In this document: in pieces, positions 618-24,123 of the stretch
How the letters are laid out: each line of letters opens with the position of its first letter
How positions within the stretch are numbered: the first letter of the stretch is position 1
NCBI GenBank assembly: GCA_030153385.1
Contig: JASKJN010000007.1
Span: 1-43,034 of the forward strand
DNA from: Archaeoglobaceae archaeon
GTDB lineage: Archaea; Halobacteriota; Archaeoglobi; Archaeoglobales; Archaeoglobaceae
Length of the DNA: 43,034 bases
Direction of reading: 5' to 3'
The notes under the pieces: model-generated
Databases searched by the model: none
Seen by the model: only the letters and a program-made list of their open reading frames with translations
What the model was told of the DNA's origin: nothing
Translations under genes and position numbers: made by a program

Positions 618-637
618 ATCTTTCCCGGTTTAGACTG

Positions 638-919
638 CTATAGGCCAAACTCTTCGAGAAATTCCCTTATCTTTCTATATTTTTCAAGGAATTTAAATCC
701 CTTATCGGTTAGAGAGTAGTATTTCCTGCCCCTTTTGTCGTAGATCTCTCTTATGAATCCCTTTTTTATCAGCTCGTTAAGATATTCGTTGAAGTTCTGC
801 GAAGAGAGATTTGAGAAACGCAGAAGAGGAGTCGGGAGAATCGAGTTGTTGTGATCCAAAATGGTTTTAAGAATGTCGTGTATTATTTCAAGCCTATCCC
901 TCTTCTTCATGACCTTCAC
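638..919 (-). CDS. Winged-helix transcriptional regulator
   Basis: 93 aa; NEYLNELIKKGFIREIYDKRGRKYYSLTDKGFKFLEKY wHTH wing pattern; GTG start abuts upstream stop. Confidence 0.75.
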   Translation of the reverse strand: MKVMKKRDRLEIIHDILKTILDHNNSILPTPLLRFSNLSSQNFNEYLNELIKKGFIREIYDKRGRKYYSLTDKGFKFLEKYRKIREFLEEFGL

Positions 920-1606
920 CTAAGTAGTTCTCGAAACTCTATAAGCAATGTAGCCCACGAAGAATGCCGAAAGAGTGTATAATATAAGTCTAATCTCAAA
1001 ATGCATTCGAATAGTCAGCAAGACCACGTTTATAACCCAAAAAACAAAGATCAGGATGTAAATTGGATATATTCCAGCAAAGAAGGGTTTTTTCTTCTCA
1101 GCTTTTTGGTAGCTAAGGTATATAGAGGTCATTAGGATTGTAAAGAAAATGATCTGAGAAACCAAAAGGTAATTGGCTCCGAATAAAAGGGTAAGGAAAG
1201 CAACAAAAACTGCAAGTATGTGAACAATGGTTTCATGACTATGTTCCCCGAGTTTTCGCCAAATTAGGCTAAGAATGAGATACAGGATAGATAAGGAGCC
1301 GAAATAGGCTAAGAAGAACCCGCTGAAGAGGGCAACAATGCGGAGATCTGGGAAAAGCAAACGGGGAGGAACTTCGAAAATAACTCCCCAAGAGAGCAAA
1401 AGATAAAGAACAGATCTCGAGAGGTAGGCGATTCCGAGAAAGAGAAAAGAGAATCTGAAATATCTTATGCTTTTTTCGGATGTCAGCTCGTAGATCTCCT
1501 TTGTTTTGAAGTATATTAGGGTGCAGAAGATGAATAGTGAGATTGAATATAGGATCTCCGGGACCAAAAACTCGAATATGAAAGTTTGGGGTGGAATTGG
1601 TGGCAT
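920..1606 (-). CDS. Polytopic membrane protein of unknown function
   Basis: 228 aa with multiple hydrophobic helices; adjacent to the wHTH gene with no gap. Confidence 0.65.
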   Translation of the reverse strand: MPPIPPQTFIFEFLVPEILYSISLFIFCTLIYFKTKEIYELTSEKSIRYFRFSFLFLGIAYLSRSVLYLLLSWGVIFEVPPRLLFPDLRIVALFSGFFLAYFGSLSILYLILSLIWRKLGEHSHETIVHILAVFVAFLTLLFGANYLLVSQIIFFTILMTSIYLSYQKAEKKKPFFAGIYPIYILIFVFWVINVVLLTIRMHFEIRLILYTLSAFFVGYIAYRVSRTT

Positions 1607-1695
1607 GATCGGAATTTGCTTAAAACTATATAAGAAAAATGGATCTAATCTAAAGTGTATACTTTTATTTCAGTCGAAGACGACTATTTAACCCA

Positions 1696-2061
1696 CTAAT
1701 TTTTATTAACCATAGACTTCGCTTCAATTTGTTCTATGAGCTCCTTAAGTGTTTTTTTTGTGAAAGGTTTCTCTAATATTCCCTTTGCCCCTGCATTGAG
1801 GAGTTCTTTTCCCCTGCTCCTCGCAAATGCGGTTATTCCTACGATGATCGCATTCGGATCGAACCTGAGAATTTCCCTGGTAGTCTCCACCCCATCCATT
1901 CCGGGCATGCTTATGTCCATCAAAACGAGATCTGGCTTGATTTTCTTGTAAAGCTCTAAACCCTCAAGTCCGCTTGCCGCTTCAAAAACCTCATGTTCTT
2001 TTAGCATGATCTTTACAATTTCCCTTATGCTCTCATCATCATCGACAATCAAAATCTTCAT
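1696..2061 (-). CDS. CheY-like response regulator (stand-alone receiver)
   Basis: ILIVDDDESIRE, DLVLMDISMPGMDG, ITAFA, KPFTKKTL receiver motifs. Confidence 0.95.
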   Translation of the reverse strand: MKILIVDDDESIREIVKIMLKEHEVFEAASGLEGLELYKKIKPDLVLMDISMPGMDGVETTREILRFDPNAIIVGITAFARSRGKELLNAGAKGILEKPFTKKTLKELIEQIEAKSMVNKN

Positions 2062-2100
2062 GATAACAGCTGTAGTAGTAATCAGTATAATAACTTTTTC

Positions 2101-3300
2101 TTACACTTCTGAAACCCCGAACACCTTTCCCGCTCTCGACTGGCTCTGCAGAACCTCTTCACCCCTCAAATAGACCTGTACTGGAAAAACCGCCTTGAAT
2201 CCCTCATAAGGTGTCCAACCGCAGAGAGAGTGTAGATCCTCCGCCCTTATCTCCCTGACTTCTTTCAGATCAAAGACTGCAAAGTTAGCAAACTTTCCAA
2301 CCTCTATTTCTCCATAATCCCTAAAGCCAAAGACCTTCGCGGGATTTGTCGCTATCTTCTCAACCAGATCCCTGAAGCTAACAAAACCTCTTCTTGCAAG
2401 CTCAACAAATATAGGATAAGTTGTTTCCACACCCGGAAAACCTGCAGAGCCATTCTTTTTGTCCTCCAAGGTGTGAGGTGCGTGATCTGATGCAAGTATC
2501 TGTATTCTATTAAAATTCCTTAGAAGCCAGTCCGCATCACTTTTCTGCCTCAAAGGCGGATTCACGTTCACCAGATCTCCAAGTCTGTTGTAATCTTCAA
2601 CGCTTAAAAGAATATGATGGGGTGCAACCTCAAAGCTTCCCTTGCTCACTCTCTCCACAGCCTCCCTTGTTGAAAGATGGCAGAAGTGGAAATTTCCTAT
2701 TTTCTCACATTCCTCCACAGCAAAAATTTCTGCCTCTTTTTTTCTAAACAGAAAGTTTGGAAAACCTCTCTCAACAAACCTCGGATCTTCTGCGTGGATC
2801 GTGACCTTCGCATTCAAATTCAATTTTTTCAGCGTCTCATAACCAATTTCAAGCTCTTTTTTGTCGTTCTGGAGAAAAACCTCGCCTATAGCAGGCAGAA
2901 AATACTTTTTTCTTATTTTTTCTACCTCCTCTGCTATTCTTTCCGAGTTTTTATTTGTAAGGGCAAGATTCAGTGCGTAATCAACATAACTCCTTTTTTC
3001 CGCTATTTCCATTCTTCTGAAGTAAGTCTCCGCATTGTCCACCACTGGCCTTGTGTTGGGCTGATCGACAACGAGACAAATCCCGCCATGCAAAGCGGAG
3101 AGACTACCTGTCTCGATAGTCTCCTTCTCTCTCTCTTCAAAATCCCGAAAATGAACGTGCACGTCTATTCCCGCAGGCAAGATTATGCCATTCACCTTTC
3201 TGCCTTTAACGAGTTTACCGATCCTCTTTATCCTGCCCTCCTCCACTTCCACGCCCGCCTCGACAAACTCGCCCCTATAGAAGAGCTTACCGTATATCAT
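2101..3300 (-). CDS. pyrC: Dihydroorotase
   Basis: GIDVHVHFRD, HFCHLSTREAVE, ILASDHAPHT amidohydrolase motifs. Confidence 0.92.
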   Translation of the reverse strand: MIYGKLFYRGEFVEAGVEVEEGRIKRIGKLVKGRKVNGIILPAGIDVHVHFRDFEEREKETIETGSLSALHGGICLVVDQPNTRPVVDNAETYFRRMEIAEKRSYVDYALNLALTNKNSERIAEEVEKIRKKYFLPAIGEVFLQNDKKELEIGYETLKKLNLNAKVTIHAEDPRFVERGFPNFLFRKKEAEIFAVEECEKIGNFHFCHLSTREAVERVSKGSFEVAPHHILLSVEDYNRLGDLVNVNPPLRQKSDADWLLRNFNRIQILASDHAPHTLEDKKNGSAGFPGVETTYPIFVELARRGFVSFRDLVEKIATNPAKVFGFRDYGEIEVGKFANFAVFDLKEVREIRAEDLHSLCGWTPYEGFKAVFPVQVYLRGEEVLQSQSRAGKVFGVSEV

Positions 3301-3306
3301 AAAACC

Positions 3307-4023
3307 TCAGTCATGCAAAAATCCGCTGATCTCATGCCTCTTCAGAAGCTGTCTGAATCTTTCCACAGCAGATCTGACTCTTTCCCTGTTCTTACCCGAG
3401 AATTTCACAATCACATAGCCAAACTTCGGATATGAGCCTATTTCTACATCGGGAAACTCATCAACCACTTTGTTCAGCTCTTCAAGGATCCTCGATTCAT
3501 ATCCATCGACTCTAACCTGATCTTCGAAGTATTCAAGCTTTTCAAACCTGTTTAAGATTTTCTCGAATGTGTTCTTCATCTCCTCAGGCACTCCCGGCAT
3601 TACCGCGACATTCTCAACTATGTATGCGGGTGCAGCTCCCACATCGTTCCAGACGATCTCCGAACCTTCAGGCACCGAAGAAATCTTTCTTACCGCTAAT
3701 TCACTATCGCTCTTGATCTTGGTCTTAACACGTTCGTAAACTTCTTTATTTATCTTCAGTTCCCTTTTCAAAGCCTTTGCCACTCCCTCGCTTGTTACAT
3801 CGTCATGCGTTGCTCCAAGACCACCAGTAACAAATACGAAGTCAAAAAGTCTTGAAGCTTTTCCGATCTCATCTGCGATCTCCTCAACGCTGTCCGGGAT
3901 AACGAGAATTCTCTTAACTTCATGTCCGAGCTCCGTTAGCTTTTTGGCAATGTATGAAGCATTCGTATTTACAGTATCTCCCCTAAGCAACTCGTTTCCA
4001 ACGCTTATTATTGCGACTCTCAT
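3307..4023 (-). CDS. CinA/MoaB-like molybdopterin-binding domain protein
   Basis: [54 protein letters not shown]. Confidence 0.92.
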
Positions 4024-5201
4024 AATCTTTCCCTCTTTATTCTCTGAAACATCCTTCCCTGCAGTCCGTGGAATACTGCAAAGCCTTCTGCAAGCCTCTG
4101 GTCGATCGCCTTTGTGTCAAAGGAGACAAGCTGTTCAGAATACAGAGCATAATCCGAATACCTTGCGATCGGCATAACCGAACCCTTATAAAGCCTGAGT
4201 TTCACCCATCCCGTGACTCTTTCCTGTGTCTTGTCGATGAAAGCGTTTAGGTCTTCAAAGAGTGGATCATTTGTGAGTCCATAGTAAACGAGCTCCGCCC
4301 ATTCTTCCTCAATTATCTTCTTGAGCTTGAGTTCCCTTCTGCTAAGAACAAGTTTTTCAAGGTCTCTATGTGCTGTTATCAAAATCGTGGCAGCGGGATG
4401 CTCGTAGTTTTCCCTTGCCTTCAATCCAAGAACACGGTCTTCGATCATGTCTGTCCTACCAATTCCGTGCCTGCCACCAATCTCGTTTAGAAGCTTTACA
4501 AGCTCGAAACCTTCGAGCTTCTTGTCGTTCACAGCTACTGGAATTCCTTTTTCGAAATCGATCTTTATTATCTCCGGCTTGTCAGGCAAAGTTTCTGCCT
4601 TCGCAGTCCATTCGTAGATCTCCTCTGGTGGAATAAAGCTCGGATCTTCAAGCTTTCCACCTTCGATGCTCCTGCTCCATAAATTTTCGTCGACACTGAA
4701 AGGATTCTCCTTCGTCGCTGGGACCTCGATCCCGTGTTGCTTTGCGTACTCTATTTCCCACTCTCTCGTCAGATTCAGCTCCCTCACTGGTGCAACAACC
4801 CTGAAGTTGTACTGTCTGAAGACGTTCTCAAATCTGAGCTGGTCATTTCCCTTTCCCGTGCAACCGTGAGCTATCGCATCCGCTTTTTCCTTCAAAGCTA
4901 CTTCCACAACCTTCTCCGCGATTATTGGTCTTGCAATTGCTGTGCCGAGGACGTAGCCTTCATAATCCCCGTTCGCCTTTATCAGCCTGTATATCGCTTC
5001 AACAAATTCCTCTCTCGCGGGAACGGTGTAATGTCTGTCCGCATACTTCTCCCCTCTCTCCTCTGCCCTTTTAAGCTCTGATTCAGGCAGTCCGATATCG
5101 ACTGTGGCGGTAATGACCTCATCAAAACCATACTTTTCTCTCAGAAGGAAAATGCATACCGTGGTATCGAGTCCACCGGAGTAAGCAAGCACGACTTTCA
5201 T
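4020..5201 (-). CDS. argG: Argininosuccinate synthase
   Basis: [47 protein letters not shown]. Confidence 0.98.
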
Positions 5202-5287
5202 GCGTCATTTTAAACTTCAGGATATATAAGCTTGCGAGAGTGGTCTGAATTTTGAGAGAAAATCTTTTAAATCTCTATATAGAAATA

Positions 5288-5617
5288 ATGACAATGGAGT
5301 TCGCAAGAATGTTCATTGGAACCCAAGAGCTTTTGCTGATTATTATCGTCGTCCTCCTGCTTTTTGGAGCGAGTAAAATCCCCGAATTAGCGAGAAACCT
5401 CGGAAGAGGTGTTGCTGAATTCAAAAAAGCACAAAGAGAGGCGGAAATGGAGCTCAGGGAACTGGAGAGAGATCTGAAGATTTCCAAGGAAGAGAAAAGA
5501 AAAAAGCTTGAGAAAATAGCTCAAAGCCTTAACATAAATCCCGAAGGAAAAAGCGATGAGGAATTGCTCGAGGAAATAAACAGAGCTTTACCAAAAGCAG
5601 AGAAAGCGGAACCTTAA
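5288..5617 (+). CDS. tatA: Twin-arginine translocase subunit TatA/E family
   Basis: [43 protein letters not shown] at 5288 (or 5294) preferred over the track start at 5252. Confidence 0.9.
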
Positions 5618-5636
5618 GAGCAAAAATTTAAGTCTT

Positions 5637-6995
5637 TTACAAAAAGCTAATCTTTAAAGGCAGTCTGATCTCAAACCCCGCCCCCTGTGGTTTATTATCA
5701 AAGACAGAGATTGTTCCACCGAGATATTCGACGATTTTCTTAGAAAGCAAGAGCCCCAGACCACCACCTTTCCTCGTTGAAACTCTTGTCTTGAAGAGCT
5801 TTTCTTTGATCTCCGCAGGAATTCCAGCGCCGTTGTCAGTTATTCTCAGAACGCAGTAATCTCTATCTCTAAAAGCCTTCATTTCAACCGTTATTGGCTT
5901 AACCTTTCCGTGCTGTATGGAATTCCGAACTATGTTGTCAATAACGAATTCCGGAGCCTCATTCGCTGGGACTTCAATTTCTTCAACTTCTGCGTGGAAT
6001 TTCACATCCTGATCATTCGCATACTACTTCTCGATCACATTATTAACAACTTCGCGAATATTCACTGGCTTAAGCTCGCCAAGGGCAAGTTCAACGGATT
6101 TTGATGCTTCAAGCTTCTGAACTATTGAATCCAGTGATCCCAGAGCTTTTTCAAGCAGTTTCTCATCACCCAGCTCAATTGCCCCTCTGACAACTGTGAT
6201 CTCATTAAGAATATCATGCCTCAAAATACTTCCAAGGACAAGCAGAAAGTCATTCAGCTTTCTGAGCTTCTCATTTGCCTCATGCAGTCTTGTAACGTCT
6301 ATTGCTGTAACGTAGGATGTTGGTTTCCCGTTGAAAACTATTGGCCTTGCTCTTATCGAATGCCATCTCACGCCATGCTTTGTTAAAACCCTGAAATCGT
6401 ACTCTTCAGTCCCTCTGAGACCTGCCTGTCTTTCCATGTTTCTCCTGTAAACGAGATCTCTGTCCTCTGGGTGCACGAATTCGAAAGCATTTCTGCTCAT
6501 GAGCTCTTCAAGCGAGTAGCCACTAAGCTCTTCCATATACCTGTTCGCAAAGACGATCTTCTCCCCCTGGACGATATACATGGCTGCAAGTGCATCGTCT
6601 ATCAGGCTTCTGTAGAACCTCTCGCTTTATTCCAGCTCTTCGCGGAGCTTTTTCTGTCTCGTTATATCAATGAAGTTGATTATTCCGAATTTTCCGTGCT
6701 TTTTCAGAAAACCCCAGACCCATCTGACTTCTCCGTTCTTTTTCACATATCTAAATTCGGAGAAAAAATTTTTTCCAGCTCTCACATCTTCCAGTACTGA
6801 AAGAAGTCTTTCACGATCCTCTGGATGAGCCAGAAACGTGAGATGATGTTTTTCTATGATCTCTTCTTCTGAATAACCTGTTGCCTCTGAGAAGACCTTG
6901 TTTACGTAAAGATAGGCATAGGTATCAAGGTCAAAGATTGCTGTTCCTGCAAGCGATTCGTCAACAAATTCTTTCCACATCTCACCTACGATCAT
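5637..6995 (-). pseudogene. PAS-PAS-histidine kinase with two in-frame stop codons
   Basis: Three ORFs (6627-6995 PAS; 6024-6581 PAS + H-box LRHDILNE; 5637-6005 HATPase with N and G boxes) are all in the same minus frame, separated by TAA (6627-6629) and TAG (6024-6026), with homologous-looking sequence continuing through the gaps. Confidence 0.8.
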
Positions 6996-7319: not shown

Positions 7320-8330
7320 GTGGTAAAGGGTCTTGAAAGATACACCCAGATCAACCAGGGAGAAGCGGTTGCGAAATTCCAGATAGCGAAGAGAATTGAG
7401 GCAGAAAAGGTTGAAGGATTGGAAGAGCTTTTAAAAGTTCATTCCAAGCTAAAAAAAGATTTTAAGAAGATCCTACTTGAAGGTGACCTTGATATTCTCA
7501 AAGTAGAACCAAAGAGCTACTCCTTCCTGCATTTGAAGAGAGATCTTCTGAAAGAAATGCTGAAGGAATGCAAGTTCTGTGAGCGGAGATGTGGTGTGAA
7601 CAGATATGAGACCACTGGATTCTGTAAATGCTCTTCGAAGAGCTATTACAGCAGTGAGTTTCTGCATTTGGGTGAGGAGCCTGAGCTTGTGCCTTCACAC
7701 ACGATATTCTTCAACCGCTGCACATTTGCCTGTGTTTTCTGCCAGAATTATGACATAGTATACAGCGACGATATGCCTGTTAATCCTGAAGAGCTTGGAA
7801 TGCTCATAGACATTCGATACAGGCAGGGAAGCAGAAATGTGAACTTCGTTGGCGGGAATCCTGACCAGCACGCGCACACGATTGCAGAGATCTTGCTAAA
7901 TGTCAGATCCAATATTCCCGTTGTCTGGAACTCGAACATGTATCACAGCGAGGAACTTGCGGAGATAATAGAGGATTTCGTCGACGTCTGGCTTGGAGAC
8001 TTCAAGTACGGCAACAACAGCTGTGCATTGAGATATTCAAAGGCCCCGAGATATATGGAGGTCGTTAAAAGAAACTTTTTGAGGGCCAAGGAAAACGGAG
8101 ATCTTCTTATCAGACACCTTGTGATGCCAAACCACCTCCAGTGCTGTACGAAAAAAGTCATTGATTGGGTTGCAGAAAATCTCGGAGAGGGAGTTAGATT
8201 TAATCTGATGTTCCAGTACCGTCCAATGTTCAAGGCTAACGAATATCCGGAGATCTCAAGAATGCTTAAAACTGAAGAAATGAAGTTGGCCTACGAAATT
8301 GCTTCTCGAAAGTTGTCAAACCTCGTATGA
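7320..8330 (+). CDS. Radical SAM protein (PflA-like/COG1313-like)
   Basis: CxxxCxxC-type FFNRCTFACVFCQNYDI plus upstream CKFCERRCGVNR; GTG at 7320 preferred because the track start (7212) lies inside the tRNA. Confidence 0.87.
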   Translation: MVKGLERYTQINQGEAVAKFQIAKRIEAEKVEGLEELLKVHSKLKKDFKKILLEGDLDILKVEPKSYSFLHLKRDLLKEMLKECKFCERRCGVNRYETTGFCKCSSKSYYSSEFLHLGEEPELVPSHTIFFNRCTFACVFCQNYDIVYSDDMPVNPEELGMLIDIRYRQGSRNVNFVGGNPDQHAHTIAEILLNVRSNIPVVWNSNMYHSEELAEIIEDFVDVWLGDFKYGNNSCALRYSKAPRYMEVVKRNFLRAKENGDLLIRHLVMPNHLQCCTKKVIDWVAENLGEGVRFNLMFQYRPMFKANEYPEISRMLKTEEMKLAYEIASRKLSNLV

Positions 8331-9931
8331 ACCTTATTGAACTGCTGGATAAAATTGAAAAAGTAGCTGAGAGAAAAGTCCTTGAAAAAGAGATCTACGA
8401 CGCTGAAATTCTCGCGAGAAGAGGAGAGATTGCGATCATTCTCTCCTCCGGCATCATACCAGCGGGAAGTGTTGTGGCGTATTGTGATGAGGGGATAACT
8501 CCTTTTGGCTATGTGATTGATGTCAGAAGAGCAAAGAATGGATTTTTATTGGCAGTTAAGGAATTTGAAAGAATCGAGGGAGAAAGGATCGTCGAGGCGG
8601 AGAATTTGCTTAGCCTGGCTTTGAGAAAAGAGGTTGCAAGCAGAATGGATGATATCCTGGATTTCGATTATTGGAGCGGGCTAAAAAGAGTTTCCGCCCC
8701 TGACTGGCTCGACAAATGGCAGAAGGAGTGCTTTTCCGCTTCATGCTCTCTTGAAGATGGGGAAATTCTGCTCGTCATAGGCCCTCCCGGGACTGGAAAG
8801 ACGACTTTTATAGCAGAGTCAGCAAAAAAGCTTTCTGAAGAGGAAAGAGTGTGGATAACTTCCAACACGAACATTGCAGTAGATAATGTGCTGGAAAAGC
8901 TTGAAAAAGGTCTTAGAATTGGACATCCCTCAAAGCTGACTGAAGGAGCTAAAAGGCACAGCATTGAAGCGAGAATCCTTTCGCAGATAAGATTCAGCGA
9001 CTACGAGGAATTTGCAAAGAAGATCTCCTCCGCCTACAGAGAAATAGCAAGAGCTCAGGAAGAAATGATTGCGAACGGGAAAATAGCGGTTGGATCTACA
9101 ATTCTCAAAGGAGCGATGAGCGGTATTCGCAACTACGAATTCGACACCGTTTTCATTGATGAGGCGAGCAACACTTGCATCTCTACCGCGTTAATAGCTC
9201 TTGAAAAAGCAAAAAAGGCAGTTATCGTTGGCGATCCCTTCCAGCTACCCCCTGTTTACGAGATAAACGTTCCAAATGCTTACAAGTTTTCCGCTTTCAG
9301 CTTTTTATACGAGCTATACCGAAAGGCATTGTGGCTTAAGAGGCATTACAGGTGCAACTCAGAGATCATAGGTTTCTCAGCGAGAGAAGTTTACAGAGAT
9401 CTTGAAATCGATGAAAGATGCAAGAATGTCAAAATGCGGGAAGTAAAAACGAGCATTCCCGAAGTAGGAGATCCAGAGAAGCCTGTGCTTTTTATAGACT
9501 GTGGTGGAGAGGAAAAGAAGGTTGGAGCGTCGAAGGTAAACGAAACTGAAGCAGAATTGGCGTGTGAGATCTGCGAAGAGCTCGCTGATGCTATTGGTGA
9601 GGATGAAATCGGTATTGTAACACCATATGTGAAGCAGAGAGAGTTTATAAAGTCGATACTCGCTGATTTTGGAATTGGCTGTGAGGTTGCAACGGTTCAC
9701 AGCTACCAGGGAAGGGAAAAGGAGGTTGTGATCTACTCGATCACCGCCACAAACAACCTGTTCTTTGCTTCAGATAAGAAGATCTTCAACGTTGCAATTA
9801 CAAGGGCCAAGGCCAAGTTCATCGCCCTGGGAAATGCAAAAGTCTTGGAGGGCAGAAACTTTCTCCTCTCGAAGTTTTTAGATTATGCCAAGCAAAGAGG
9901 GGGCTTTGTCTCTGCAAGAAAATTATTTTAG
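8327..9931 (+). CDS. Superfamily 1 DNA/RNA helicase (Dna2/Upf1/IGHMBP2-like)
   Basis: [10 protein letters not shown] Walker [10 protein letters not shown] Walker [43 protein letters not shown]. Confidence 0.94.
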
Positions 9932-18785: not shown

Positions 18786-19700
18786 TTAGTTGCTTAAAAA
18801 CGCGTAGACCTGTTCAACCGCATCTACAATTCTCGGACCGGGACGGGAGATAATATCCGCGTCTATGACGAAAACTTTTCCATTTTTAACCGCATTAACA
18901 CTCTTAAGCCTGCTATCCGATATAACCCACTCGTAAACCACGTCTTTCCCGCCCCCCATACCACTGCCACTGCTCACGATTATTACATCTGGATTTGCTC
19001 TGATCAGGTCTTCTACGCTCACGGTTCTCCAGCCCGAGAAGTTGAAAGCATTAACTCCTCCAGCTATTGAGATAGCCTCGTCTATGAAGGTCTCCTTACC
19101 GCTGACCCAAATCGGATCATTCCAGATTATGTGAACTACCTTCTTTCCGCTCCTCTCCTTTGCTTTTATTTTTGAAATTCTTTCCTCCATCTGCTCAACC
19201 AGTTTTTCAGCATTCTCATAATTCCCCACCGCTTTCCCTATTGCCAGAATCGTTCTCTCTACTCCCCTTATATCTTTTGGATCGAAGGCCAGGACGTTCG
19301 TAAACTTTCTGAGCGTTTCGATGGTTGCCAATCCGTTTCCATAGGAAGCTAAAACGAGATCCGGCTTCAAAGCCAGAACTCTCTCAATGTTGACTGTCGA
19401 ATAACCTCCAACTCTCTGAATCTCACCTTTTCTGACTTTTTCGATCACTTCTGGAGGATAATCGCAGTAGTCTGTAACGCCGACAACTCTGTCTCCCGCC
19501 CCGATGGCAAAGAGTATTTCAGTATTGCTTGGGGATAGTGAAACTATCCTCTTGGGATTTCCCGCTGTTATTTCATAGCCCGTGTCATCGACAGAGAGAT
19601 TAAAGGAATTTTCAGATTTTTTCTGCTCTTCGATCTCAGGTTGAACGCAGAGTGCGATGAGAATGCATATCAAGACGATCGGTGCAGTTCTTAACCTCAT
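18786..19700 (-). CDS. ABC transporter substrate-binding lipoprotein, BtuF/periplasmic-binding family
   Basis: Signal peptide with lipobox-like LIALC; RIVSLSPSNTEILFAIGAGDRVVGVTDYCDYPPE; KPDLVLAS. Confidence 0.93.
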   Translation of the reverse strand: MRLRTAPIVLICILIALCVQPEIEEQKKSENSFNLSVDDTGYEITAGNPKRIVSLSPSNTEILFAIGAGDRVVGVTDYCDYPPEVIEKVRKGEIQRVGGYSTVNIERVLALKPDLVLASYGNGLATIETLRKFTNVLAFDPKDIRGVERTILAIGKAVGNYENAEKLVEQMEERISKIKAKERSGKKVVHIIWNDPIWVSGKETFIDEAISIAGGVNAFNFSGWRTVSVEDLIRANPDVIIVSSGSGMGGGKDVVYEWVISDSRLKSVNAVKNGKVFVIDADIISRPGPRIVDAVEQVYAFLSN

Positions 19701-22366
19701 CTTCTCAGCCTATAGGTGACGAGTATCAAGAATGCGATGACCGCTATTATTGCGATAAACAGCTCAAAGCCTTCAGTTGTCTCTGCGCTTTCTTTAAATG
19801 GTTCAGGAGTTGTTGGAGTTTGCGTGATGAATGCGGTTGTTTCCAATGGTGTTGTGCTTTGAATTAGTGAGACATTCTTTTCCTCAACCAGTGCAAAGTA
19901 GCTGAAACTCGGAGTATACGCCTGATAATATCTGTAGCTTTCATCACAGCCCAAGAACTCAGTTTTAAGCCTTATCCAGTTATTTCCATCGAATTTCATC
20001 AAGATGTAGCTTTTTTCATCCTTTGGAACTGCGAATTTTATGTAACCGCTGACATTAGATGGCGTAAGATCGATTGAAAGATAAAGAACCGCATTATCGA
20101 GACTGATACCTTCCGGAACTTCCCTCAGCCTCTCTATTCTGAAGGTCAGATTTTCAACCCCCTCAGCTATTAAACTGAGCTCGTCAATGCCTGTTTCTGA
20201 GAAGATCTCAATTGGCATTGTAAGAGTTGTCCTGTTCTCCACTGTTAAGGTAGTAGTGTATACGGGTAAGCTTTTTATCGGATGGAATTTTCCGAGAAGA
20301 GCCATTACGGCAGATGCGGTCATATAGCCGGGATTTGAGACCTCGTAGGCAGTGTATTTGAAGTATCCTTCCTTGCTCTGAAGGCTGAGCAAATGGTCCA
20401 CAACGCTTAGATTGTTTCTCTTGAAGTTAATCGGATTCTCTCCGCCAGCTATTAAAGCCTGAATAGCCCACGAATCGCTTGCAGAATTGCTTGCGGATTC
20501 TCCAAAATACTTAATTCCACCATCTGGATTCTGACATGTCTTCAGATACTCAATGGCTCTATTCAAAGTCTGGTGCTCCTTAGCAATCGCCAGTAATTGA
20601 ATCGCAGCAGAAGTATCATCGCAGTCACTCTCCTCTCCCTCGATCCAGGGAAATCCACCGTCTGGATTCTGCACAGACTTCAGCCACTCTATCGACTTTG
20701 ACACATCCTCTCCTGCGGATTTCAATGCCAGAGCACCCCAGATCGTCGTGTAAACGTAGTCCCCTATTTGCCCGTTATCTTTTACTCTCTCCTTGAGCAT
20801 TTTTACCAAATCAAATCCCTCAAAATTCCTCGGATCTTCGCCAGCATAGACAATCGCAAGAATCGCCCTCGCTATATCCGCTGTACCCATCTTTCCAATT
20901 TCTTCTTTAATGTTCTCCCTTAGATAATCCACTGGGCTCTTTCCATCCTTTTTCCACTCCTCCAAGTTCTCGTTTGCAGAAACAATAGCCATAATAGCCC
21001 AGCATGTCGCTGAAAAAAGGCTTTTCTCCTCTCCAAAACCTCCATCATCTCTCTGCAAACTCCTCAGATACTCCAGTGCCTTTCTTATCCTCTCATCTTT
21101 CTCATCAAACGGAAAATCCTTCCAGGGAGTCAGGACTGCAAACTTGCCTATGGAAATGTTCGCCTTAAATTTCCCATCTTCCTCCTCAACACTCACCCAT
21201 CTGTCCTTGGCAAAATTAAATATCTCAAAGCTCTCATTGCTTTCAAGAACCGCTGATATCGATTCATTTGACCACAGACTGAAGCAGAGTTTCACATCGT
21301 GGTAGGGGAATCTGCAACTCTCATTTTTTAAGGAAACTATTGCTTTCTCCGCTCTGATCTTCAAAACACCAAATCCGAGATCGATAACTCTTTCCCCCTC
21401 TACAGTGAAATTTCCATGCTCTTCAGCTTTAGCTACCTTTATAAGCTTTACAACAGAATCGTGTAGACCTTCATCGTCGAAAACCGTGAGCTTGACTTCA
21501 TATTCTCCCTCCTTTTCGAATTTGTATACAATGACCTCTCCTCTTAGCTCCTTGCCCTCTATTTCCCAGAGGTATTCGACTATCTTCTTGCCACTTAAAG
21601 CGAAGGACTTTGAGGCATTGAAAACAACTTCCTGACCAGCATAGGGAACTGATGGACTGAAGTCGAAATCTGCAACAGGAGGGAGATTTGTTTCCCACTT
21701 CACATTCACAGTTATTTCATAGTTGGGGCCGAGATAGATTCTTAGGCTGTAAGGTGAATCCTCGGGCTTTTCATCCATGCTTCTCGAGAAATACCAGAGG
21801 ATCTCATCGTTTGGATAGACTTGATAATCTGTAGCAGGAATTCCGGGCATTGGCTTATTTGGATAGTTCACCCAATACATCCAGCCAGAAGTCTCTCCAA
21901 GGCTTCCTGTGCAGACATCACGAACGCAATCGACGAAGATCCCCCAATCCGTCAGTTTTGGTGTATAGGAGTATCCAAGAATTTCACATGCTTTTTTAAG
22001 TGCACCGTAAGCGGTTCTCCAGTTTATCTCTTTCCCCTGTTCGTCAAAGCTTCCAGCTGGGAGTATGTTAGCATAAATCTTGACACCTCCAGTTGCCATG
22101 CATTCTCGTATTCTTACAACCTTGCTTGCTTCTTCTTTTTCAGAAATTGCGGTGATCAGCAGTTCTCCAGTGATTTTGGGAACAAAGACCGCCTGGCCTT
22201 CAAATGTGCTTGTGTAAATTGGAACTCCGTAGTTCATTCTCAAAATCAGAAGGCTTGGCTCATCGGTGGAAATGAAAATTTTTTGATTAACGCAATCTCC
22301 AGAAACCTGAATGTTCAAAGCGAGTGCTGGAGTGATGAGAAGGATTAGTAGAAAAATCGACCTCAT
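19697..22366 (-). CDS. Secreted, membrane-anchored protein: DUF4430-like domain, PKD domain, terpenoid-cyclase-like alpha-toroid repeats, PGF-pre-PGF-like domain, C-terminal TM
   Basis: Signal peptide MRSIFLLILLITPALA; WRTAYGALKKACEILGYSYT...GWMYWVNYPNKPMPG...NDEILWYFSR (DUF4430-like); AGQEVVFNASKS...LWEIEGKE...YKFEKEGEYEVKLTVFDDEG (PKD); LRSLQRDDGGFG, LKSVQNPDGGFPW, LKTCQNPDGGIKYFG repeats; terminal IAIIAVIAFLILVTYRLRR. Confidence 0.88.
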   Translation of the reverse strand: MRSIFLLILLITPALALNIQVSGDCVNQKIFISTDEPSLLILRMNYGVPIYTSTFEGQAVFVPKITGELLITAISEKEEASKVVRIRECMATGGVKIYANILPAGSFDEQGKEINWRTAYGALKKACEILGYSYTPKLTDWGIFVDCVRDVCTGSLGETSGWMYWVNYPNKPMPGIPATDYQVYPNDEILWYFSRSMDEKPEDSPYSLRIYLGPNYEITVNVKWETNLPPVADFDFSPSVPYAGQEVVFNASKSFALSGKKIVEYLWEIEGKELRGEVIVYKFEKEGEYEVKLTVFDDEGLHDSVVKLIKVAKAEEHGNFTVEGERVIDLGFGVLKIRAEKAIVSLKNESCRFPYHDVKLCFSLWSNESISAVLESNESFEIFNFAKDRWVSVEEEDGKFKANISIGKFAVLTPWKDFPFDEKDERIRKALEYLRSLQRDDGGFGEEKSLFSATCWAIMAIVSANENLEEWKKDGKSPVDYLRENIKEEIGKMGTADIARAILAIVYAGEDPRNFEGFDLVKMLKERVKDNGQIGDYVYTTIWGALALKSAGEDVSKSIEWLKSVQNPDGGFPWIEGEESDCDDTSAAIQLLAIAKEHQTLNRAIEYLKTCQNPDGGIKYFGESASNSASDSWAIQALIAGGENPINFKRNNLSVVDHLLSLQSKEGYFKYTAYEVSNPGYMTASAVMALLGKFHPIKSLPVYTTTLTVENRTTLTMPIEIFSETGIDELSLIAEGVENLTFRIERLREVPEGISLDNAVLYLSIDLTPSNVSGYIKFAVPKDEKSYILMKFDGNNWIRLKTEFLGCDESYRYYQAYTPSFSYFALVEEKNVSLIQSTTPLETTAFITQTPTTPEPFKESAETTEGFELFIAIIAVIAFLILVTYRLRR

Positions 22367-24123
22367 CTTACCTCGACCTCTACTGGACCGAACCATGAGA
22401 TTAATTTCTCTGGATACTCCTCGAGCTTGTAAATTCCAGCGTAAAGCCTGTAAGTGCCCACCTTCACCTGCTGTGGAATCGCGATGAGCAATGGGACTCT
22501 GAGATCGCCATTCGCGTAAAAAGTCGCGATTCCTGCAAGACTGTCACCTTCTGAATTTACTCCGCTCAGGACAAGAGCATACCATCCTTCCTCAGCTGAA
22601 ACATTCACGAAAGCGGAGATATTTCCGCCTCTAACCCCCGGGTTCGCTGAAACGCTGTTTATTCCGGCTGGTTTTATTTCAACGTTTATCTTCAACATCG
22701 TAGTCGCATTATCTGGGGTTTCGAAGCCTGTTCCATAGATCAAATAAAGCGTATCTCCATTTTCCAGCTCCGTTTTATCCAATGCGGACCAAGGCATTTC
22801 ATCATTAACGTAAAAACTCCACCAAAGCTCATCCAAGCCCATTGCGGATTCTAAGAATAAACCATAGCTTGAATACCACGAGTCATTGAGTCTGTAGCTG
22901 AATCCGATTTCCGCTCCGTCAGCCTTTGCACCAATGCTCGCAAAGTGTAAAGCTCCTAAAGCGGAAGTTCTGCTGATCTCGTATTCTTTTCCATCAACCA
23001 TTTCCGTGTAGTTCCCGGGGTAGAGAGTAACGTTCAGCTCAATCGTTCCTGAGGAGTTGAAACAGTAAACATAACCAGAGTCGGAGCCTATGAAGAGTCT
23101 CCCCTCAGCAATTACTGGGGAAGACATTATATTGTAATAGCTATCCTCTGGAGGGATGAGGCTGTAAAACCATAGAAGCTTTCCATCGCTGAGATTCAGG
23201 GCATAAATTGTCCCATATTGCGTGTTTGTCGCGAAGTAAATTCTTCCGTTTTGAATTGCGGGAGTTGAATCCACCTTTCCCTCTGTCTTTCCCTCTCTTG
23301 GAAACTTCCACAATAATTCGCCATTCGTAGCGTTGAAGCATGAAAGGCTGTCTATACCACCGATACAAACCATTGAATCTGAAAGAACCGCATTGGATAT
23401 AGTTCCATTAAAAGCCTTACTCCAAAGGAGAGTTCCGTTTATATCGAGAGCATAAATGGAGCTCTGAGTTGCGAAGAAGACCCTTCCATCGCTGACAACT
23501 GGAGAATTCGTTATTTTTGAATCTGCGGTGAAATTCCACAACTCTCCTCCGTTTTCGTTTAAACAGAACAATCTGTTACCTGCAGAGAAGAAAATCTTGC
23601 TTTCGAATGCAAATGGACTTGCATATGGACTGCTCTCGACGTTTGCTGAGAAGTTCCATTTTAACGTCCCATCAGGTCTTAGGGCCCAAATTGTTGAGTT
23701 TGAGAACGTTTGAACGTAAATGGTTCCGTTGTGGTAAATGGGTGATGAAGCTATGCCATACCAAGAGGGGTTTTCTTCGAGCAAGATCTTTTTCTCAATC
23801 ACACCATTGGTTGCGTTCACGAAATAAAGATGCCCCGAGAGATTTCCAACCACCACTGTGTTTCCAACTACTATCGCCTTTCCCGCACCGCTTATTTCTT
23901 CATTTCTCCACTCGATCTCTCCAGTTGTTGCGTTCAGCTTGTATAATCCTGGTCTCCAGTCTGACCAGCCATACCAGTTTGTCACGTAAATGCTACCATT
24001 GTCGTAGCTCGGACTTGCGTCAACTAAACCAGTAAGCTCCGTTTTCCAGCAGAGAGATGGGATGATCTCTGCGGAAGCGATTCCAATTGATAGCAACAGT
24101 ATAAGCGAAAGTGCTGACCTCAT
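22363..24123 (-). CDS. Secreted PQQ-like beta-propeller protein with DUF4430-like domain
   Basis: Signal peptide MRSALSLILLLSIGIASA; repeated VVSDGRVFFATQSSIYALDINGTLLWSK-type blades; ISRTSALGALHFA...DELWWSFYVNDEMPWSALDKTELENGDTLYLIYG. Confidence 0.88.
   Translation of the reverse strand: MRSALSLILLLSIGIASAEIIPSLCWKTELTGLVDASPSYDNGSIYVTNWYGWSDWRPGLYKLNATTGEIEWRNEEISGAGKAIVVGNTVVVGNLSGHLYFVNATNGVIEKKILLEENPSWYGIASSPIYHNGTIYVQTFSNSTIWALRPDGTLKWNFSANVESSPYASPFAFESKIFFSAGNRLFCLNENGGELWNFTADSKITNSPVVSDGRVFFATQSSIYALDINGTLLWSKAFNGTISNAVLSDSMVCIGGIDSLSCFNATNGELLWKFPREGKTEGKVDSTPAIQNGRIYFATNTQYGTIYALNLSDGKLLWFYSLIPPEDSYYNIMSSPVIAEGRLFIGSDSGYVYCFNSSGTIELNVTLYPGNYTEMVDGKEYEISRTSALGALHFASIGAKADGAEIGFSYRLNDSWYSSYGLFLESAMGLDELWWSFYVNDEMPWSALDKTELENGDTLYLIYGTGFETPDNATTMLKINVEIKPAGINSVSANPGVRGGNISAFVNVSAEEGWYALVLSGVNSEGDSLAGIATFYANGDLRVPLLIAIPQQVKVGTYRLYAGIYKLEEYPEKLISWFGPVEVEVR

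Follow-up and report, generated by a model that had tools for sequence, protein, structure and literature searches.

A three-gene operon of an Archaeoglobaceae archaeon is likely to encode the extracellular half of a corrinoid (cobamide or cobinamide) uptake system, in which the second protein would act as a surface clamp and hand its ligand to a BtuF-like protein and the BtuCD importer. The operon was found in the stretch of DNA that was analysed as a whole and is called the window (43,034 nucleotides, contig JASKJN010000007.1). The original prediction of a cell-surface corrinoid capture relay which feeds an ABC importer is supported by the fold of a DUF4430 domain, by the toroid barrel next to it, by the genes btuC, btuD and cbiZ next to its orthologs, and by fusions of the toroid to BtuF.

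Three translationally coupled genes for surface proteins

All three ORFs are encoded on the minus strand, in the order propeller, toroid, BtuF, and are joined by ATGA start/stop overlaps, which had been predicted and were found at exactly the expected positions (Table 1). The overlaps are not attributed to chance, as a spacing of exactly -4 bases between toroid and BtuF genes recurs in 17 of the 28 Archaeoglobales loci for which it was measured. A scan against Rfam did not detect a cobalamin riboswitch and had two tRNAs as its sole matches.

The gene 1 product is composed of an N-terminal signal sequence, a beta-propeller of the PQQ/BamB type, a DUF4430 domain and a C-terminal beta domain, in agreement with the predicted secreted protein with propeller and DUF4430. 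With 40.6 bits it does not reach the cut-off of the NCBIfam PQQ dehydrogenase model TIGR03075 (480), and a C-terminal PGF tail is absent from this protein and from its orthologs. Only two matches to DUF4430 occur in the host genome (an assembly of 1.40 Mb in 79 contigs, 95% complete), one in gene 1 and the other in gene 2.

The composition predicted for the gene 2 product, with DUF4430, PKD and alpha-toroid domains and a membrane anchor, was recovered by Pfam searches, by AlphaFold2 models and by comparison of the C-terminal tails. Alignments show the toroid and DUF4430 to be its best-conserved parts, and the PKD domain to be dispensable. Among 32 orthologs, 25 end in an anchor of the PGF-CTERM type; the window copy reads EGFE.

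Gene 3 codes for a BtuF-like lipoprotein, again as predicted. It matches Peripla_BP_2 (PF01497) with 142.6 bits (E=1.7e-41, cut-off 27.5), and its lipobox cysteine is conserved among orthologs. Its score of 112.9 bits against the NCBIfam BtuF equivalog NF002894 is below the cut-off of 234. The three operon-linked proteins closest to it share 66-85% identity with it.

Table 1 Features of the operon, with positions in the window.
Feature	Position	Strand	Evidence
Gene 1, secreted propeller-DUF4430 protein, 586 aa	22363..24123	-	ORF, Pfam
Gene 1 beta-propeller, residues about 23-360	23044..24057	-	PF13360 E=3.5e-34
Gene 1 DUF4430	22732..22866	-	Pfam 24.3 bits (cut-off 23.8); 27.2 bits in six-frame search
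ATGA start/stop overlap, gene 1 to gene 2	22363..22366	-	sequence
Gene 2, secreted membrane-anchored protein, 889 aa (DUF4430, PKD, toroid, PGF-pre-PGF, C-terminal anchor)	19697..22366	-	
Gene 2 DUF4430 / transcobalamin beta-domain fold (modelled), residues 96-215	21722..22081	-	AlphaFold2, Foldseek, profile
Gene 2 PKD, residues 228-304, missing in many orthologs	21455..21685	-	Pfam E=1.5e-9; alignment
Gene 2 alpha6/alpha6 toroid, residues 405-702, with DxDDT	20261..21154	-	AlphaFold2, Foldseek; Pfam PF13243 E=2.7e-17
Gene 2 PGF-pre-PGF match, residues 784-827	19886..20017	-	TIGR04213 33.3 bits (cut-off 28)
Gene 2 C-terminal hydrophobic anchor, EGFE in the window copy	19700..19774	-	comparison of tail with orthologs
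ATGA start/stop overlap, gene 2 to gene 3	19697..19700	-	sequence
Gene 3, BtuF-like substrate-binding lipoprotein, 304 aa	18786..19700	-	ORF, Pfam

A transcobalamin-type beta domain and a toroid in one protein

The DUF4430 assignment for gene 2 is borderline at the level of Pfam, with 22.7 bits in the protein scan, just below the cut-off of 23.8, and 26.6 bits, above the cut-off, in the six-frame search. An AlphaFold2 model computed from an alignment of 25 sequences has a mean pLDDT of 90.4 and a pTM of 0.83. When this model was compared with 350,542 PDB chains by Foldseek, the top 16 matches were all to transcobalamin (human, rat, bovine) or human intrinsic factor, with probabilities of 0.97-1.00, followed by a drop to 0.21 for match 17. 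The corresponding E-values are modest (0.0018 at best) because the domain is small and sequence identity is about 20%. A profile search against 177,635 PDB sequences had transcobalamin-1 (haptocorrin) as its best match (E=0.0029), spanning the motif W-G-x-x-[VI]-x-C-I-x-G-x-C, with intrinsic factor next (E about 1.3). The model consists of hairpin, helix, hairpin and strands, and this is the order published for the transcobalamin beta domain (PMC11107200). Thus, the comparison with transcobalamin and intrinsic factor bears out the DUF4430 assignment, and the modelled domain has the same fold as the beta domain of these animal carriers.

The predicted alpha/alpha-toroid is likewise a real alpha6/alpha6 barrel with 12 helices (AlphaFold2, pLDDT 93.4), as also indicated by Foldseek. 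Its nearest solved folds are type II terpene cyclases, including squalene-hopene cyclase and single-domain enzymes, and the beta subunits of prenyltransferases. Transcobalamin is neither among its sequence-profile matches nor among its Foldseek top 50. According to the models, the gene 2 product combines a toroid and a beta domain as transcobalamin does, with the toroid resembling that of transcobalamin at the level of the fold.

These relationships raise the question whether the toroid is a catalytic enzyme of the cell surface, similar to class II terpene cyclases and with a lipid or the side chain of a cofactor as its substrate, which is merely encoded together with a corrinoid transporter. 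Besides the nearest folds, the DxDDT motif points in this direction, as it resembles the acid motif of class II terpene cyclases and is kept in all 50 of the 50 toroids listed. The scores against cyclase equivalogs are below their cut-offs (50.4 bits for TIGR01507, cut-off 431.1; 58.3 bits for TIGR01787, cut-off 322.7). However, the toroid is paired with a domain of transcobalamin beta-domain fold, and the signal sequence, the surface anchor and the fusion to BtuF in 14 distant loci fit the hand-over of a ligand better than the cyclisation of a lipid. In view of the fusions to BtuF and of the fold of DUF4430, we have set aside the enzymatic reading as the main one and keep it as an improbable alternative.

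Corrinoid genes next to orthologous operons and in the host genome

Matches to gene 2 are found in 48 of 57 Archaeoglobales genomes, a count that includes matches to the PKD domain or the anchor only, and the toroid itself in 64 genomes out of a sample of 295 from the phylum. Gene order and coupling are conserved in about 30 genomes. Among the 33 Archaeoglobales loci with a toroid, a propeller gene is at most four genes away in 31 and a BtuF gene at most three genes away in 30, while a FecCD permease and CbiZ (adenosylcobinamide amidohydrolase) are found within seven genes in 19 and 12 cases, respectively. In twelve of these loci, genes for a FecCD permease, an ABC ATPase of the corrinoid type and CbiZ are attached; in its complete form the cluster runs permease, ATPase, CbiZ, propeller-DUF4430, DUF4430-toroid, BtuF. 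The operon-linked ATPase has 'corrinoid ABC transporter ATPase' as its best NCBIfam model, with a score below the cut-off, and the operon-linked CbiZ scores above the Pfam cut-off.

BtuF is missing in three of the 33 loci. One locus (L041) is truncated by a contig end and in another (L044) none was found. In the third (L056), from a complete Archaeoglobales genome of 2,178,400 bases, BtuF (7876-8810, minus strand) is split into two ORFs of 215 and 96 aa, which correspond to residues 8-185 and 210-298 of the gene 3 product. This is probably due to a frameshift or a sequencing error.

In the host genome the cluster is split: the orthologous genes btuC, btuD and cbiZ are on another contig (C61), apart from the operon in the window. 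CbiZ is single-copy and located there beside BtuC and BtuD. The C61 proteins are up to 72% (BtuC) and up to 62% (BtuD) identical to operon-linked ones, compared to about 36-46% for the paralogs on contigs C14 and C2. The genetic linkage between BtuF and the corrinoid BtuCD is thus seen in orthologs, while the importer of the host has its copy on C61. On contig C2 of the host (L039, 859-6068) there is another set of BtuF, FecCD permease and ATPase, which is followed by a CobN-like gene.

Since CbiC and CbiB are also encoded in the host genome, this archaeon can probably make corrinoids and does not depend on their uptake. The presence of CbiC therefore suggests that uptake is probably a synthesis-sparing salvage rather than the rescue of an auxotroph. 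Several proteins with a B12-binding domain are encoded, and the host thus has use for the cofactor.

In other archaea, the orthologs adjoin btuC, a corrinoid-type btuD and cbiZ, as expected, and not the iron or heme genes which would have spoken against the prediction. With the machinery unchanged, the ligand might be a metal tetrapyrrole other than a corrinoid, or a siderophore (heme, F430, an iron complex), given that PF01497/FecCD transporters also serve heme and siderophores, that gene 3 scores below the BtuF equivalog cut-off and that the paralogous BtuF-FecCD-ATPase set of the host adjoins CobN. We regard this as improbable too, for CbiZ, which is specific for adenosylcobinamide, lies inside the conserved cluster, the best model for the ATPase is that of corrinoid ATPases, the DUF4430 fold matches B12 carriers only, and family searches did not identify heme or siderophore genes at conserved positions. 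F430 in particular was set aside because of CbiZ in the cluster.

Outside of Archaeoglobales, the same proteins occur in other arrangements. In MAGs of the ANME type (Methanosarcinales, Methanophagales), two consecutive genes encode DUF4430 and toroid separately, with BtuF and BtuC following. Toroid and BtuF share one ORF, with the toroid being N-terminal, in 14 of 20 loci from more distant relatives. A few relatives (L136, L151, L152) have no BtuF nearby, which speaks against the proposed function. In some relatives, fusion of propeller and DUF4430 gives proteins 1258 to 1736 residues long, one of them with four DUF4430 domains, and the genes for these giant proteins adjoin those for the toroid-BtuF fusions. 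Fusions thus occur at both gene junctions, which argues for a joint action of the three products.

PKD and propeller domains are frequent in archaeal S-layer proteins, and with PKD being optional the products of genes 1 and 2 might be structural surface proteins which are encoded next to btuF incidentally; this is very improbable, as gene order and coupling are widely kept, fusions affect both junctions, and the most conserved parts are toroid and DUF4430 while PKD is dispensable.

Some further loci deserve mention. In L151, a CobN/Mg-chelatase domain is fused to a PQQ-type propeller (623-6058, minus strand, 1811 aa) beside genes for propeller, toroid and DUF4430, and this locus could possibly be a second, chelatase-linked version of the surface system. 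In several methanogen-side loci, the toroid-BtuF fusion is followed by a gene for a WD40-like propeller (L143, 10625-11725, plus strand; L141, 10925-12109, plus strand), which may be another surface component. The genes of L104 (DYFG01000055.1) are nearest to ANME-type (Methanophagales) relatives; the public name of this entry, Candidatus Nitrosotalea, looks wrong. The same gene layout is found in a contig (G219:C65) which is placed in the phylum of the window.

Proposed function and comparison with known corrinoid carriers

The gene 2 product would be a corrinoid clamp anchored at the cell surface, in which the two folds known from transcobalamin and intrinsic factor are combined. For transcobalamin, it has been reported that the beta domain alone binds cobalamin and cobinamide, and that the domains, when expressed apart, assemble on cobalamin and associate only with ligand bound (PMC5599065). 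The beta domain binds cobalamin first and the toroid closes afterwards (PMC11107200). Similarly, the DUF4430 domain of gene 2 may contact the corrinoid first, with the toroid closing over the ligand. The gene 1 product may be an auxiliary secreted capture module which adds binding sites at the cell surface. From the clamp, the ligand would pass to the BtuF-like lipoprotein, which would feed the BtuCD importer, in the host presumably the one encoded on C61 with CbiZ; a fusion of toroid and BtuF would make this transfer intramolecular. Within the cell, CbiZ would turn imported adenosylcobinamide into adenosylcobyric acid, and the corrinoid would be re-used through CbiZ and CbiB. Corrinoid binding, the order of hand-over and any preference between cobamide and cobinamide are what we infer from these comparisons.

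The literature already gives DUF4430 as the domain at the C-terminus of transcobalamins from animals (PMC4350170). Transcobalamin, intrinsic factor and haptocorrin share with the archaeal system the extracellular location and the pairing of an alpha6/alpha6 toroid and a beta domain of ubiquitin-like fold (DUF4430). However, the animal carriers have the toroid first, followed by a linker and the beta domain, whereas the order is reversed in gene 2 (beta domain, PKD, toroid). In addition, the archaeal toroid is closest to terpene cyclases and has kept DxDDT. The archaeal system is anchored at the surface and linked or fused to the binding protein of an ABC importer, whereas the animal carriers enter by receptor endocytosis. 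By analogy, the operon would work like transcobalamin, but it is not counted in that family because the domain order differs and neither the profile search nor the Foldseek top 50 linked its toroid to transcobalamin.

With the vitamin B12 ABC importer BtuCDF of E. coli, the system has in common a BtuF-like binding protein, a FecCD permease and an ATPase. It differs in being archaeal, in its BtuF being a lipoprotein, in the presence of CbiZ, in the extra propeller and clamp proteins, and in the toroid-BtuF fusion of methanogen-side relatives. For gene 1, a role comparable to that of BtuG from Bacteroides is suggested by analogy; BtuG is a beta-propeller of the cell surface which is encoded with B12 transport genes and captures B12 (PMC6143338). 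BtuG partners BtuB of the outer membrane, whereas gene 1 combines a PQQ/BamB-type propeller with DUF4430 and there is no outer membrane. CbrU and CbrV, described as parts of an ECF transporter, were dropped as precedents. Archaeal cobinamide salvage by CbiZ is similar in having CbiZ and BtuCD in one cluster and in re-using imported adenosylcobinamide, but as described it comes without secreted capture proteins (PMC3541065). The operon is classed as a variant of BtuCDF-type corrinoid uptake with added clamp and propeller proteins. A description of DUF4430/transcobalamin-like proteins in prokaryotes, of such an operon, or of the capture of scarce corrinoids outside the cell by archaea was not found in the open-access literature that was searched.

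We lean slightly towards the view that a corrinoid clamp of the transcobalamin type, independent or ancestral, exists in archaea and is directly coupled, in some cases by fusion, to the BtuF protein of an ABC importer. If this is true, the B12 carrier of animals with its two folds has an equivalent in prokaryotes, made from a repurposed terpene-cyclase toroid and DUF4430. The operon is a testable prokaryotic system with the odd pairing of toroid and ubiquitin-like domain known from the animal carriers, here linked through gene order and fusions with a known route of B12 import and with salvage by CbiZ, and it bears on the origin of these carriers. A function is suggested as well for several groups of surface proteins from archaea that are currently labelled as DUF4430, PQQ repeat or squalene-cyclase-like.
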